In this document: one piece after another, positions 2,466 through 46,885 of the stretch
Numbering within the stretch: the first letter of the stretch is position 1
Layout: every line of letters begins with the position of its first letter
Virus record (IMG/VR): IMGVR_UViG_3300047678_000800
Coordinates: 1-58,414 of that record
From: a virus
Length of the DNA stretch: 58,414 nt
Strand: one strand, 5' to 3'
Translations under genes and position numbers: made by a program
Notes under the pieces: model-generated
Told to the model about the DNA's origin: nothing
Databases searched by the model: none
The model's input: only the letters and a program-made list of their open reading frames with translations

Positions 2466-2726
2466 CTACTGATGGTCATTCACCGCCCGCGCTGCCTCGT
2501 AGGCGTCGATGACGCGTAAATGCTTACGCTGGCAGTCCCGATACGCCAAGGCAGCGTCAGCGTCGGCTGTGACCAGTGTTGGGATGGTCTGATCCGTCAA
2601 GGGCTGGAGCGGTGGGCAGGGCGCCATCATTTCCGCCGACAACGGGGAGAGCCGTACCCGCGCGGATGGCGTTGAGGTCGTCGAACACCCCGCGAGGAAG
2701 ATCGCACTGGCGATCACGATAAACAT
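2466..2726 (-). CDS. Rz1: o-spanin (Rz1-like outer-membrane lipoprotein)
   Basis: 86 residues from the ATG at 2726; an earlier ATG at 2753 would add nine polar residues. It has a short hydrophobic signal ending in the lipobox FLAGC, with the lipidated Cys at residue 14, then a Ser/Pro/Thr-rich mature chain. Most of the gene lies in a different frame inside the Rz gene and runs 91 bases past its end, the classic overlapping spanin layout. With Rz it is expected to fuse inner and outer membranes at the end of lysis. Confidence 0.85.
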   Translation of the reverse strand: MFIVIASAIFLAGCSTTSTPSARVRLSPLSAEMMAPCPPLQPLTDQTIPTLVTADADAALAYRDCQRKHLRVIDAYEAARAVNDHQ

Positions 2727-3051
2727 CAACTGCCACCGTTCTGATGCGATCACGGTATATGGTCCTTAGCTGTTGGGTTTGTGCCTTGTCGGCGGTCAGG
2801 CTCACGTCGATTCCGTGGAGCGTGTCGATGTATTCCCAGCTATCGGCCTGCGCTTTGGCCTGTGCTGCCTGCTGGCGGGCCTTCCACTCACTGTCCGCCG
2901 CATCGTAGCCCGCGTGCCAGATATGGCTGTGTACGGCCCACAGAAGCCCGAGGACGGCTAGGGTGATGGCGAGGTATTTCAGCCATCCCCAATTGGCCTG
3001 CAGCCAGCGTCCGGCAGCGTAGCGGGCGAGCAGTGTTGCGAGGAAGGTCAT
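2557..3051 (-). CDS. Rz: i-spanin (Rz-like)
   Basis: 164 residues. One N-terminal transmembrane segment (about residues 23-42) is followed by a charged coiled-coil periplasmic region (about 50-105, with several TADKAQ/RDRIRT-type stretches), as in Rz proteins. The C-terminal third is encoded over the Rz1 frame. The start overlaps the deformylase stop by 4 bases (ATGA). It is the inner-membrane partner of the o-spanin in host lysis. Confidence 0.85.
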   Translation of the reverse strand: MTFLATLLARYAAGRWLQANWGWLKYLAITLAVLGLLWAVHSHIWHAGYDAADSEWKARQQAAQAKAQADSWEYIDTLHGIDVSLTADKAQTQQLRTIYRDRIRTVAVDVYRDRQCDLPRGVFDDLNAIRAGTALPVVGGNDGALPTAPALDGSDHPNTGHSRR

Positions 3052-3485
3052 GGTTGGCTCCCAATCACTTTGCCGTCCAAATGGTCGACTTCGTGTTGAA
3101 TGCAGGTAGCGAGAAGCCCAGCCGCTTTAAGCACCACGCGCCTTCCGGTACGGTCGGTGTAGGCGACGCGCACAGATGCATGGCGGCGCATGTCAGCGGA
3201 AAGTCCTGGAACAGACAGGCACGATTCCCGGCTCAGCACGTGTTGGGCGGATCGGAATGTTATCTCGGGGTTAATCATTTCTCGAAGGGGGCCACCTGCG
3301 ATCTGCATAACCACCATCCGCAGCGGGACACCAATTTGAGGTGCCGCCAAGCCGATGCCAAAGTGCGCGGCCATGGCACTGCCCATATCATCCAAAATGG
3401 AGCGCACGGCGTCGGTTATCTGAACAACCTGTCCAGCCCGCTCATAAAGCCTTGGATCAGGAGCCGTTAGAAGAACGCTCCTCAT
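3048..3485 (-). CDS. def: Peptide deformylase
   Basis: 145 residues from the ATG at 3485, which overlaps the upstream stop; a longer frame to 3521 would overlap that gene more. All three catalytic motifs are visible: GIGLAAPQIG, ESCLS (Cys metal ligand, with Ser in place of the usual Gly) and QHEVDHLDG (both His ligands and the catalytic Glu). The enzyme removes the N-formyl group from new proteins. It ends soon after motif 3, so it lacks the C-terminal helix of bacterial enzymes, as described for other phage deformylases. Its place between endolysin-like and spanin genes is unusual. Confidence 0.93.
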   Translation of the reverse strand: MRSVLLTAPDPRLYERAGQVVQITDAVRSILDDMGSAMAAHFGIGLAAPQIGVPLRMVVMQIAGGPLREMINPEITFRSAQHVLSRESCLSVPGLSADMRRHASVRVAYTDRTGRRVVLKAAGLLATCIQHEVDHLDGKVIGSQP

Positions 3486-7718: not shown

Positions 7719-10700
7719 ACCGCGCCGCCGATCTGCTTTTTCGCCACCGCCAGCGCCGCCGCAATCGCCTCGTCGGGCTGTTGCAGCAATGGCTTCGTCT
7801 CCCGGTTCGTCTCGTTCTTGATCCGCTCGTGCTGGCGGATGAGATCGTCGGCGATGTCCGACGGATTGCCGATGCGGCCGCCGTTTGCAAATCGGCGCGA
7901 AAATCTTGCCATGATGCGATCATCGGCTTCGCCACCCTTTGGCTTCATCCTAGACGCATCAATGCTAAAATTGCCTATGGCGGTCGGAGCCTCGACGCCA
8001 AAGCCTATCTGGTTAGATGGACCCATCTTTGAAGCGCTTGCCCTGCCGACGAGCGTGGGATCACCGAAGTCATTATGCAGAATCGGCGCGGACACGTTTG
8101 CATATACCCCGCGCTGCTTCGGAGCGCGCATCGCTCCATCAATATCCGACTGGCGATAACCGCCCGAGACAACAACTCCAGGTACGATTTCCTGAGGGCG
8201 AACCGCGACGTCAAGCATCTTTGCCCTTGCGGATGGGCCAACTGCATCATCCTCAGCTTGTTCACCTGTAACCGGTCGCATGAAGGACTCGGAGTTATTG
8301 ACCTGCAGAGGAAGCCACCCCCCATCGGACCGTCGGATTCGACCACCATTGCGCTCGGCTGGCGCGTACACCGGATCCTCGCGGCGTTTGTCGGCGGCGT
8401 TCGGCGCATGAATCGCGGACTGCATGGGCACGAACAGCATGGCGTTGCGCAGCCGCTCGCCAGTTGACATGGGGGTGCTGGTCGGGGCCTTGCGCAGCAT
8501 CTCGGCGGCGCGTTTCGGGTCCAGCATGGCGTCACGCAACGAGGCGCGGACGTTGCCCATGCCTTTTTCACGGATGGCGTTTGCGAAGTCTTTCGCCAAG
8601 CCGCTGATGGCCGCCGCTGCCGCCGCGCCGTGCTGCCCTGCTGCCGCCAGGCCAAGAGGTGCCGCCAGTTTTCCAGCCGATTCCTTGATGCCCCGCGCGG
8701 CTTCCTGCATCGGCGCAATCGCATCCTGCGGCGTGTTCGACTGGCCGGCGAACTTGGTCGCGTTCATGGTCCGCTTGGCGCGCGCGATATCGGCCGCCAC
8801 GGCGTTCAGCGTGTCGATGCTTTCCTTACCCAGTCCAGCCGCTTCCAGCACAGGCCTGTTCTTCGCCAGGAATTCCTGGAAGGCGTTTGCCTTGATCAGG
8901 TTCTCGCCACTGGCCGCCGCCTCGGTCTGCGATTGCAACCGCTCGAGCAGATGGTCCATGACCGATTTTTTCAGGCCCTCGGCTGCATCCGGGTCTTTCG
9001 CCGCTTCTGCCGCCAGCCGCTTCATCTGCGCCACGGCATCGTTGCGGCCGAAGATGCTGCCGACCGTCCGCACCACATCGGTGGGCTCGGAAACGCCCAT
9101 GACCTTGCCGACGGCGCCGGCCTGGAAATCATCCAGCGCCTGCTTGCGCGCAAGAGCCGCTTCGGTGACGGCCTGGGTAGCCTTCGCGGCATCGCCGAAC
9201 CGTTCGCTCAGTTCGGGGAAAGCGCGCAGGGCATTGCCATATTGCCGGTCGCTCTGGAATGCCGCCAGCTTGACCGGATCAATCGTGCCGTCGGCTGTCA
9301 TCGCGGCGGACCGGACCTTTGAGGCGACATAATCGCCGAGCAGCTGTGTTGCCCGGTCATCGCCGACCATCCGGCGCAATTGCTGCACACCCTCGAACCC
9401 CGACGGTCCGGTGTGGAAGAACAGTTCAGGCACGGTGGACGGTGCCAGATCAGGCCGGAACGGTGCGAACTGCGACATGCCGTCGCTGGCCCGCGCGGCT
9501 TGCGCAAAGCGATCAGCGGCATCCGGAATGGCCCGCAGCGCCTGAGCATGGTTCTTGGCCCACACGGCATATTTCGCAGGGTCCAGCGTGCCATCCTCGC
9601 GCAGCGCGGCCTTGCGCAGCGACGCGGCGGCCTGATCGACCAGCGCCGAACGCGCGCCCTCATTCTCGCCAAATGCCTTCGTGAAGGCCTGCGCGGTCTG
9701 CAGCCCCTTGTCGCCGGGGATGAAAGCGGTTGCCGGCACCGCGGACTCCGGCATTGTCGGACGCCCGAATTTGTCTTTCAGGACAGCGCCAACGGGCCCC
9801 TCGTCGAAGGTCGCCTTCAGTTCGCTATGCGCGCTCTTGGCGTCCCGGAGACGTTGGGCAGCCGCTTCGTCAAAGTTCGGCACCAGTGCCGGCGGAGATG
9901 CGGGTGCCCCGGCCGGAGCCAGCGCAGAATCATCCATCCACTTGCCGAACAGGGCATGGGCGCGGTCCTCGATGGTATTGCCAGCGGAGATCGCGCCGCG
10001 CGCCAAGGCGCTTCGTTCGCGTTCAACCTGGTTCCTGACGCCGTTGTCCATCGCGTCATTGATCGCCGACTTGACCTGCGACAGGCGCCCCCACGTCGGC
10101 GTCCGGCCGTTTTCTGCCGCCATGGCAGCGGTCACGCGCTGTTCAAGCGCGACGAGATCCTGGAACGGCACCACTTCAGGCATATCCGCCACGATCTTGA
10201 ACACCTGCAGTTCTTCGCCGTCCGGCGGCTTGGAGTTCATGTTGAACTCATCGGCCATCCGCATGACGCGGTTGCGCACCGGAGCCGCGACGATATTGAT
10301 GCTGCCTTCCGGGTCGATGGCCTGATAAAGCGCGTCTTTCTGTGCCTTGGCGGCGGCGCGCGACTCCTGCAGCGCATCCCGCATGGTTAGACCAAGCACT
10401 TCCGGCGGCGTCGTGCCGCCAAGCGCACCGACTTGGCCGGCCGCCTGCGCACGAGCCGCTTCGATCTTCGGTGTGATTTCGGCGCCAATCCGCGTGCCAT
10501 AGAACTCCGGCGTGCCAGTGCCGTTGAGGTCTGCGGCCTTCCGCTGCGCCTCGGTCAGATAGCGGTCGATGTTGATCTGGTGCGCCGCGTCGATCTGGTT
10601 GTGCTGGTCGCGAAGGAAGCGAGCCACATCCTCGGGCGCGCCTTCCGTCTGGACGCCTCGGAATGCCGCCATGCGCGCGGCGTTCTGCTCGCCTTCACGC

Positions 10701-45349: not shown

Positions 45350-45646
45350 TCAGTTCACCGCGTCCCAATACAAGTCGAACATCGCCTGTTCTTCCTGCCT
45401 GATATCCCGGTCCTTCTTGCGCTCCGCGACCACCTTGCGAAGGGCCTTGGGGTTGAACCCATTGCCGCGCGCCTCGGCGTAGATGTCGCGAATGTCTGCC
45501 GAAAGACCGTCCCGCTCTTCGGAAAGACGCTCTATCCGTTCAACCATGCTTTTCAGTTGGCCGGCGGCAGCGGAGGTCTCCACAGTGGCGACACGGCCAT
45601 GTAGTTCGCCGGTGTTGGTATCGTGGGACGTCGCGTCCATGGTCAC
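45350..45646 (-). CDS. gapR: DUF2312 / GapR-like nucleoid-associated protein
   Basis: 98 residues; the ATG at 45646 has GAGGTGA 3-9 bases before it (an ATG at 45640 is the alternative). AAGQLKSMVERIERLSEERD, LSADIRDIYAEARGNGFNPK and ALRKVVAERKKDRD match GapR, the alphaproteobacterial protein that binds over-twisted AT-rich DNA and helps replication and topoisomerase work. A phage copy could serve phage DNA replication or alter host chromosome structure. A terminator-like hairpin just upstream suggests attenuation control. Confidence 0.9.
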   Translation of the reverse strand: MTMDATSHDTNTGELHGRVATVETSAAAGQLKSMVERIERLSEERDGLSADIRDIYAEARGNGFNPKALRKVVAERKKDRDIRQEEQAMFDLYWDAVN

Positions 45647-45655
45647 CTCATCGGG

Positions 45656-45913
45656 TTAAGAAAAGGACCGGAGCCCAAAGGCCCCGGCCAAGGTGCCGCG
45701 CGTGGAAACGGGAACCGCGCGGATGGAGACAAGTGGAGCGGCCAGCCCTGAACCGGGGAGAACCTGGCTGGCCGCATCGACGCCAAGGCACAAACCTGGC
45801 GACGATTGGAAAGAGGTGCCCGAATGCGAGGGCTCACATCCGGGCTTGCAGGCATAGGTGACAGCCGGAGGGGCCAAGCTGTTGGAGCCGGTGCCTGCAA
45901 TTGGGGAATTCAT
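45656..45913 (-). CDS. Doubtful ORF over a structured region
   Basis: 85 codons, ATG overlapping the upstream stop (ATGA). The peptide is Ser/Pro/Gly-rich (TGSNSLAPPAVTYACKPGCE) and its end is the translation of a terminator-like hairpin and T tract (GAFGLRSFS). The coupling favours translation, but the six consecutive hairpins and composition favour an RNA. I rate the RNA reading somewhat higher; both are given. Confidence 0.35.
   Translation of the reverse strand: MNSPIAGTGSNSLAPPAVTYACKPGCEPSHSGTSFQSSPGLCLGVDAASQVLPGSGLAAPLVSIRAVPVSTRGTLAGAFGLRSFS
45661..45689 (-). terminator. Intrinsic terminator / attenuator before the GapR gene
   Basis: Minus-strand stem GGCCGGGGCC / GGCTCCGG-CC (one bulge, one mismatch) with a TTTG loop, followed by TTTTCTT. 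Fifteen or so bases before the GapR ribosome site. Confidence 0.65.
45661..45905 (-). ncRNA. Candidate structured RNA / attenuator leader with six hairpins
   Basis: On the minus strand, in order: S1 45846-45900 (9-bp TTGCAGGCA/TGCCTGCAA closing stem); S2 45818-45845 (about 12 bp, with G-U pairs that work only on this strand); S3 45781-45801; S4 45738-45775 (10-bp GCGGCCAGCC/GGCTGGCCGC); S5 45696-45722 (7-bp CCGCGCG/CGCGCGG); S6 45666-45689 followed by TTTTCTT. S1 and S2 abut. This looks like a folded RNA that ends in an intrinsic terminator just before the GapR gene. It could be a free RNA or a leader controlling read-through. Confidence 0.45.
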
Positions 45914-46131
45914 GCGGTCCTCCAGACGCGGAGGCCATCGGCGACGGCGCGCGCCGTGAACTTGACGCCATGGATGCGCGCGTACTGCGATGCGGCCGCG
46001 CGGGCAGATGCGAAACTGTCGCTGTCGGTCACCAGAAAGCTGTCACCGACATCCATCCCCGCGAACGGGAACTCGTTGGGCTCCCTCGGCGGCAGCGGGA
46101 CGCCGCGCTCTATGGCGTAGAGGGCTGTCAC
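45910..46131 (-). CDS. Conserved phage protein, GDSFLV type
   Basis: 73 residues from a GTG start overlapping the previous stop (GTGA). Contains FPFAGMDVGDSFLVTD, then SARAAASQYARIHGVKFTAR and LRVWRT, a layout seen in a widespread small phage/mobile-element protein family of unknown role (often FPF...VGDSF...A...Y...G..F..R....G.RVWR). Confidence 0.78.
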   Translation of the reverse strand: MTALYAIERGVPLPPREPNEFPFAGMDVGDSFLVTDSDSFASARAAASQYARIHGVKFTARAVADGLRVWRTA

Positions 46132-46250
46132 GGCTTCACCTCGGGTGTACTACCGATGCCCCTTTGCGCCGCCGATCCGGGACGCGCATGGTTGACACGG
46201 CTTGGATGATCGGGCGTGGCTTGTGCGGATTTGGCGGGGCAAAGGATCAT
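46128..46250 (-). CDS. 40-residue protein
   Basis: Supported by translational coupling at both ends: its ATG overlaps the Cro-like stop (ATGA, 46250-46247) and its stop overlaps the next start (GTGA). Sequence opens MILCPAKSAQATPDHPSRVN and is basic/Pro-rich. No family. Confidence 0.5.
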   Translation of the reverse strand: MILCPAKSAQATPDHPSRVNHARPGSAAQRGIGSTPEVKP

Positions 46251-46480
46251 GCGGCCTCCCCGCGCAGGAAGGCGTCCTTATCAAAGCCTTCTATGTCTTC
46301 GGCGGCGAGGTCCGCGATCCAATATCGCCACTCTGCCGGAACGCCGCGCACAGTCCAGTTCCAGACAGCGCGGTGGTCCTTAAGATGGCGCCCAGAACGT
46401 CGTGTCAGTTCACGGCCAAGCCCAGCAAGGCCACCTCTCTTGGCGGCCAGTTCTCGAATGATGTCTTGATTGTTTGGCAT
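46247..46480 (-). CDS. Cro-like DNA-binding regulator
   Basis: 77 residues from the ATG at 46480; upstream residues in the open frame run into the operator region and are rejected. NNQDIIRELAAKRGGLAGLG, then AVWNWTVRGVPAEWRYWIAD with the W...GVP..WR..IA pattern typical of Cro/YdaS-type proteins. First leftward gene, divergent from the repressor and driven by a TATAAT promoter covered by operator O1. Likely switches on the leftward programme and represses the repressor. Confidence 0.72.
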   Translation of the reverse strand: MPNNQDIIRELAAKRGGLAGLGRELTRRSGRHLKDHRAVWNWTVRGVPAEWRYWIADLAAEDIEGFDKDAFLRGEAA

Positions 46481-46491
46481 GGTCCACAATG

Positions 46492-46506
46492 TACACGTAT
46501 CGTGGA
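46492..46506. promoter_or_regulatory. Operator O1
   Basis: TACACGTATCGTGGA: near-palindrome of consensus CCACG-TAT-CGTGG, immediately beside the minus-strand TATAAT box (46508-46513), where repressor binding would block the start of the Cro-like transcript. Confidence 0.7.
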
Positions 46507-46507
46507 T

Positions 46508-46513
46508 ATTATA
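46508..46513 (-). promoter_or_regulatory. -10 box of the leftward early promoter
   Basis: Perfect TATAAT on the minus strand 28 bases before the Cro-like start. No consensus -35 is evident at 17 bases (GAGTTG); a TTGTGG lies at a spacing of 14. Flanked by O1 downstream and O2 upstream. Confidence 0.55.
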
Positions 46514-46527
46514 CAAGCATCACATGG

Positions 46528-46540
46528 CCACAACTCGTGG
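46528..46540. promoter_or_regulatory. Operator O2
   Basis: CCACAACTCGTGG: half sites CCACA and CGTGG with a 3-base centre, matching the O1 spacing. It lies in the -35 region of the leftward promoter. Another half site (CCACG) occurs at 46564-46568. Confidence 0.55.
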
Positions 46541-46565
46541 GGCGCAAAACCGTACAGTTTGCGCC
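46541..46565. repeat. Inverted repeat upstream of the repressor gene
   Basis: GGCGCAAA / TTTGCGCC, 8 bp perfect with a 9-base centre, 12 bases before the repressor ATG. It could be a further regulatory site or a hairpin in the repressor leader. Confidence 0.5.
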
Positions 46566-46576
46566 ACGATACCGGC

Positions 46577-46885
46577 ATGGCTAAAGCTGCTGAGAAGACA
46601 CCCGCGAAGATTGCATTCGGTGATCGCCTGCAAGAGGCGATTGCAGCGTCGGGCTATAAGTCGGACGCAGCCTTTGCGCGGAAAATCGGCATCTCCCCGA
46701 AGCGCATGAGCAACTTCATCAACGGCTGGCGCTGGGCCGAACCGGAGCTGCTGGGCGCGATCTGCGAACAGCTAGATTGCACAGCAGACTATCTTCTGTT
46801 CGGGAAAAGGGCCGGCCTTCTGGGTGATTTCAGGGACCGCCTTGACGCTTGGCGCGCGGCTGGGAAGTTATCCGGCCGCACATAA
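46577..46885 (+). CDS. XRE-family helix-turn-helix repressor
   Basis: 102 residues from the ATG at 46577. IAFGDRLQEAIAASGYKSDA, then AFARKIGISPKRMSNFINGW and LGAICEQLDCTADYLLFGKR form the five-helix XRE domain (about residues 12-78). A short C-terminal helix follows with no peptidase or RecA-sensing domain. No ribosome site is visible, so translation may be weak or leaderless, like lambda cI from PRM. It is the probable owner of the CCACG-TAT-CGTGG operators. Confidence 0.82.
   Translation: MAKAAEKTPAKIAFGDRLQEAIAASGYKSDAAFARKIGISPKRMSNFINGWRWAEPELLGAICEQLDCTADYLLFGKRAGLLGDFRDRLDAWRAAGKLSGRT

Follow-up and report, generated by a model that had tools for sequence, protein, structure and literature searches.

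In a virus contig of 58.4 kb (the window, 58,414 bases analysed as a whole), six inverted repeats follow one another over 245 bases on the minus strand upstream of a gapR-like gene. An open reading frame (ORF) of 85 codons, p85, covers the same stretch, 45656–45913. The question is whether this element acts as an RNA or encodes a protein and, if it acts as an RNA, whether its target is gapR or the operon in which it is located.

Genome context

The portal protein encoded in the window is 62–68% identical to those of a large virus family. The element is located in a leftward run of minus-strand genes in the order cro-position gene, p73, element, gapR, VRR nuclease gene, genes of DNA-binding-type proteins, methyltransferase gene (phrog_799) and helicase gene. 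According to its sequence, the helicase appears to be DnaB-like. The first gene (46247..46480) is assigned to the cro position by its location, and no Pfam match was found for it. The small early gene p73 (45910..46131) shows a coding signal and has relatives in other viruses. The gapR-like gene downstream of the element (45350..45646; PF10073, E 2e-27) starts with GTG at 45646 or ATG at 45640. A small helix-turn-helix (HTH) protein gene, which is repressor-like, diverges from the run on the plus strand (46577..46885; Pfam HTH_3, E 1.9e-4, a little below the curated threshold). In the divergent region, dyads were detected by an inverted-repeat search (46535–46569), and a perfect TATAAT on the minus strand (46508–46513) is a possible −10 element of an early promoter. 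Its −35 element is weak, and the site is absent from the list of the consensus promoter scan. As far as gene order can tell, the run resembles an early operon.

Between the first gene and p73, a 40-codon ORF is present (46128–46250, minus strand), with an ATGA overlap after GGGGAGG and an odd composition like that of p85.

Fold of the element

The minus-strand RNA of 45656–45913 has a predicted folding energy of −124.4 kcal/mol, compared with a mean of −94.6 kcal/mol (s.d. 4.3) for dinucleotide shuffles (n = 200). The resulting z is −6.91, and none of the 200 shuffles is equally stable. The plus strand gives a z of −2.36. With DNA folding parameters, the minus strand is still ahead (z −6.2 versus −3.5). 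Six modular hairpins, P1–P6, are found in both the minimum free energy (MFE) and the centroid folds. The six consecutive hairpins that an earlier note on this DNA had described are thus all reproduced, at the same positions and with the same stem lengths.

P1 (45846–45900; z −3.1) consists of a 9-bp outer stem and an inner hairpin. P2 (45818–45845; z −4.7) is a 12-bp stem with two G-U pairs, and it abuts P1. P3 (45776–45806; z −4.8) is abutted by P4 (45738–45775; z −3.9), which has a 10-bp stem; P3 and P4 together span ~70 nt. P5 (45696–45722; z −2.5) has 7 bp, all G-C, and the loop GUUCCCGUUUCCA. P6 (45666–45689; −20.4 kcal/mol) has 10 bp including two G-U pairs. Taken singly, each hairpin is more stable than its own shuffles (z −2.5 to −4.8). 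The 6-nt linker CACCUU between P6 and P5 (45690..45695) is complementary to the gapR Shine–Dalgarno sequence GAGGUG, not significantly so. Sequestration of the gapR ribosome-binding site by this linker was considered and rejected: the predicted pairing fits, but the site is equally closed in 20% of the shuffles.

P6 has the features of an intrinsic terminator, a GC-rich stem of 10 pairs followed by CTTTTCTT, in which the T-tract reads C-TTTT-C-TT. P6 with its T-tract (45658..45689) was also detected by an independent pattern scan, where it is the sole minus-strand terminator-like site near the element. The strand bias and this end bear out the earlier suggestion of a structured minus-strand RNA with a terminator-like end.

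A regression scan across all 58 kb of the record places the element first, with the two most stable 250-nt windows given their composition; a plus-strand site near 2.3 kb is almost equal to it. At least six stems of at least 7 bp are found in 1% of the shuffles and in 8 of 896 windows of this genome (0.9%). The hairpin count alone is unremarkable, and the exceptional feature is the energy. Unpaired G is scarce and the loops are G-poor, as the composition predicts and without significance, and G-poor loops were dropped as a special feature.

The second most structured region of the record is 2200–2650 (z −4.4 on the plus strand, with both strands stable). Its structure, located between convergent genes near the left end, is probably that of back-to-back terminators.

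The overlapping open reading frame

The start of p85 consists of GGAGG and then ATGA, in which the ATG overlaps the TGA of p73. The final T of the P6 T-tract is the first base of the p85 stop codon TAA, which is located about 10–16 nt ahead of the gapR start codon. The ORF thus ends inside the terminator, as had been noticed earlier. With these features, p85 is a candidate leader ORF overlapping a terminator, as in attenuators of the pyrBI type. The anatomy is not statistically special, because an open frame is expected by chance (the p85 frame stays open in 68% of dinucleotide shuffles) and A/G-TGA overlaps are found at 44% of the long ORFs.

The good Shine–Dalgarno sequence, the overlapping start and the frame that stays open up to the terminator would suit a real gene for an 85-residue protein, in which the hairpins are incidental. 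However, the GC content per codon position of p85 is flat (0.58/0.65/0.67), without codon periodicity; in gapR, p73 and the nuclease gene it falls at position 2 and rises at position 3, as is usual. The p85 translation has few charged residues and an odd composition. It has no match in Pfam, PHROGs, NCBIfam or IMG/VR, and its sole match among phage sequences is one stretch with E 6. Synonymous-codon shuffling of p85 destroys the fold (z −6.9 for the element against these shuffles), and therefore the structure does not follow from the encoded amino acid sequence. A protein gene at this position is highly improbable, in agreement with the earlier view that the ORF is unlike one. From its sequence, p85 may be translated though it is no conserved protein.

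Search for relatives

With Rfam 15 at the gathering score, no match was found in the 58,414 bases, and blastn and nhmmer searches of phages, plasmids and 192 fetched loci gave no DNA homologue of the element. The region after the nearest relative of p73 (in L082) contains another ORF and not the element. Two single-sequence covariance models, R1 (P1–P4) and R2 (P3–P6), were searched against the fetched loci, virus records and 385 alphaproteobacterial genomes. R1 gave nothing convincing in these three sets; a match in L036 (E 0.02) was inspected and judged to be chance.

The best lead came via relatives of the methyltransferase. R2 matched two of these loci on the coding strand, L273 (2487–2643, 28.4 bits) and L203 (3504–3667, 25.3 bits), in both cases 1.3–2.4 kb upstream of the methyltransferase gene, as in the window. 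The best other match in ~2.7 Mb of viral DNA reached 18.6 bits, and the best match in the 385 alphaproteobacterial genomes, searched with stricter filters, reached 24.9 bits. Therefore, the L273 match is above the background and the L203 match is at the background. The R2 score comes partly from the generic GC-rich terminator. The two stretches fold stably as arrays (z −3.9 and −4.6), start at ATGA after a small early gene, contain abutting hairpin pairs and end in a similar terminator. The loop word UCCCGUUUCC of P5 recurs in a hairpin loop of L203. The 5′ half of the element (P1–P2) was found in neither L273 nor L203. From these comparisons of sequence and fold, a look-alike of P3–P6 appears to occupy this operon slot in L273, and perhaps in L203.

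In an alignment of the three sequences (A4), 21 of the 42 pairs show double changes. This favours the structure, but the counts are not proof, because the alignment was fitted to the structure. A three-sequence model (R3) 'matched' 29 of the 385 genomes. The best 12 of these matches were inspected and were mostly generic terminators or hairpins, several of them the terminator of the other strand; R3 was judged unspecific and its matches were not used. A DNA search with the L273 stretch gave one match of 41 nt, in a host coding region, which was rejected.

Two other structured regions were observed. L273 carries a long GC-rich inverted repeat (CCCCACCTGCCCC...) at 9222–9379 on the plus strand, which scores as a microRNA family below the gathering score of that family; the match is surely chance, and the palindrome is striking. 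In L109, a viral contig binned with an Opitutae metagenome-assembled genome, a minus-strand structure at 2848–3010 (z −6.1) ends in a terminator and has no Rfam match.

Against the suhB/MmgR family (RF00519; gathering score 41), the element scores 15.3 bits (E 3) at 45651–45719 on the minus strand, over P5–P6, which is no better than the background in other viruses. On the sequence, none of the described RNA families testable here includes the element, as the earlier note had supposed. A suhB/MmgR-type small RNA (sRNA) is located in the same early slot of L225 (3233–3304, plus strand, 46.8 bits), 1.7 kb upstream of the methyltransferase gene. Another match of this type, below the gathering score (35.3 bits), is located in L200 (2626–2697, plus strand), 2.3 kb upstream of the methyltransferase gene. 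Both methyltransferases are related to that of the window. These RNAs suggest that regulatory RNAs are often located in this slot.

Other suhB-type matches were also recorded. A weaker one (25.6 bits, at 3288–3365) follows a gapR-like gene in L214. Seven virus contigs (L301, L302, L303, L321, L322, L323 and L324) have matches over the gathering score, at 54–77 bits; those of L322 and L323 are near the contig ends and may be host flank or attachment sites.

Regions upstream of other gapR genes

The earlier note had regarded the element as a stand-alone RNA or an attenuator controlling the expression of the GapR-like protein, and the search that it proposed upstream of other GapR (DUF2312) genes was performed. 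We fetched 80 GapR relatives and examined the upstream regions of roughly 60 loci from other viral contigs. No structured leader was found in these regions, which are mostly coding and not unusually structured (z mostly +1 to −3). The stronger folds upstream of GapR correspond to repressor/first-gene regions and coding sequence. Stable upstream regions in rhizobial GapR prophages were considered as counterparts and rejected, as they also consist of the repressor/first-gene region and coding sequence. Because these ~60 regions are without it, the element is, as judged from sequence, not a GapR leader as such. The anatomy favours a terminator or attenuator within the operon; the GapR-specific link was not upheld.

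In the rhizobial prophages L042, L052, L055 and L059, gapR directly follows a cro-like gene, opposite the repressor gene (~2630–2990, plus strand). According to these prophages, GapR-like genes look early in other temperate phages too.

Proposed mechanism and alternatives

We tentatively favour the reading that the element is a non-protein-coding minus-strand RNA in the leftward early operon, serving as a terminator/attenuator before gapR and the replication genes. The fold of the minus strand (z −6.9), the recovery of P6 by the independent scan, the same-strand run from the divergent HTH gene with its TATAAT, the lack of coding signal and homologues of p85, the stability beyond that of synonymous-codon shuffles, the start of the leader at the ATGA overlap and its stop in the T-tract, and the look-alike array and terminator in the same operon slot of L273 and perhaps L203 argue for it. 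The high stability of P1–P5 is not accounted for by a leader that is translated up to the T-tract, and this speaks against an attenuator. Sequence and computation give the fold and its strand bias, the shape of the terminator, the order of the genes, the anatomy of the leader ORF and the absent coding signal; from these we infer that the stretch is transcribed, that P6 terminates, that the leader is translated and that gapR is regulated.

In such a terminator/attenuator, RNA polymerase would start near 46500 and transcribe the first gene and p73 before it reaches the hairpins. In an untranslated array, P1–P6 would form and P6 would terminate transcription before gapR, leaving a short early RNA whose 3′ end is protected by a hairpin. 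A ribosome terminating at the end of p73 would leave ~220 nt to P6, and therefore the terminator could act. The ribosome finishing p73 could also reinitiate at the AUG that overlaps the p73 stop (GGAGG...AUGA) and read the 85 codons of the leader across the hairpins. Such a ribosome would stop in the T-tract, so that P6 could not form, and transcription and translation would continue into gapR; the leader ribosome would end adjoining the gapR ribosome-binding site. In Escherichia coli, translation of the upstream gene almost abolishes the activity of a terminator located a few base pairs behind the stop codon; full termination needs >27 nt between the two (PMC4824070). With P6 in the operon, gapR and the replication genes would need it to be passed. 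As a conjecture, P1–P5 may serve to protect the short RNA or to slow the ribosome on the leader.

Two readings compete most with this one. In the first, the array may be the 3′ end of the early transcript or be cut from it, and persist as a stable phage sRNA of ~250 nt; such an RNA would act in trans, for instance through base pairing to ribosome-binding sites. The 3′ terminator, the compact modular fold, the CACCU words in the linkers and the suhB/MmgR-type sRNAs in the early region of L225 and L200 are consistent with an sRNA. Its suhB score is at the background level, however, anti-Shine–Dalgarno words are not enriched in the element (p 0.07–0.23), and no promoter of its own was identified; we consider an sRNA possible and rather unlikely. 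In the second, the abutting pairs could work in the manner of put RNAs: a pair such as P3 and P4 would bind the polymerase, which would then pass P6 and later terminators. The put RNAs have ~70 nt and two stem-loops, and putR is located ~270 nt from the start of its promoter (PMC9378689). P3 and P4 match the put RNAs of HK022 in size and abutment, the array is located downstream of an early promoter (only predicted here) and before a terminator, and the abutting pairs recur in the look-alikes of L273 and L203. Nevertheless, abutting hairpins are common in arrays, and the resemblance to put is one of layout. Antitermination of this kind is doubtful, and we give it little weight.

The element may instead be an inert GC-rich palindromic spacer with an ordinary terminator, kept without a regulatory role. 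The frequency of six-hairpin counts in shuffles and genome windows, the lack of a close homologue and the nearly equal stability of the 2.2–2.6-kb site of the same genome would agree with a spacer. On the other hand, the fold is strand-specific, every hairpin is individually stable, and a look-alike is present in the same slot of L273; a spacer is unlikely. We give similarly low credence to a broader proposal, in which one early-operon slot of alphaproteobacterial temperate phages (the window, L273 and perhaps L203) holds an undescribed class of hairpin-array RNAs. Its sequence would diverge fast while the abutting pairs and the terminator are kept, with put-like or translation-coupled control of early transcription. 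Should the look-alikes form a single family, this would be a previously undescribed class of early-operon phage RNA. As an early-operon terminator/attenuator, the element is of a kind already known.

Early-operon antitermination and attenuation have been worked out in detail in coliphages; for phages that infect Alphaproteobacteria, much less is known. The combination of a hairpin array, a leader ORF ending in a terminator and the gene of a DNA-binding protein is compact and would make antitermination and attenuation in alphaproteobacterial phages testable. The observation is solid and strand-specific, yet stands almost alone, and the mechanism is a proposed one.

Comparison with known systems

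The put RNAs of HK022 resemble the element in their abutting stem-loops of ~70 nt downstream of an early promoter, which is predicted here. The element differs from them in having six hairpins including a terminator and in its host group, the comparison being one of layout. MmgR is an Hfq-dependent trans-acting sRNA of 77 nt with an anti-Shine–Dalgarno motif (PMC7143759). The suhB/MmgR RNAs (RF00519) have a GUUUCC stretch and a GC-rich terminator in common with the element, and RNAs of this type occupy the related slot in L225 and L200; the element is longer, has six hairpins and is without the CUCCCU single strand before the terminator. The gene downstream of the element is a clear member of the family of phage GapR homologues (PF10073); unlike here, the ~60 other viral loci have no structured leader upstream.

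The terminator tR1 of lambdoid phages is an early terminator between cro and the replication genes. Likewise, the terminator-like hairpin P6 is located between the first genes of an apparent early operon and its replication genes. In the window, by contrast, no nut-like site or N-like protein was identified, and a hairpin array of 200 nt precedes P6. The coupling attenuators of the pyrBI type in E. coli differ from the element in that here there are no pyrimidine genes and no known pause site, the candidate leader has 85 codons, and five further hairpins are present. In both cases, a leader ORF, a candidate one here, runs through an intrinsic terminator, and a ribosome translating close to the terminator would prevent its hairpin.
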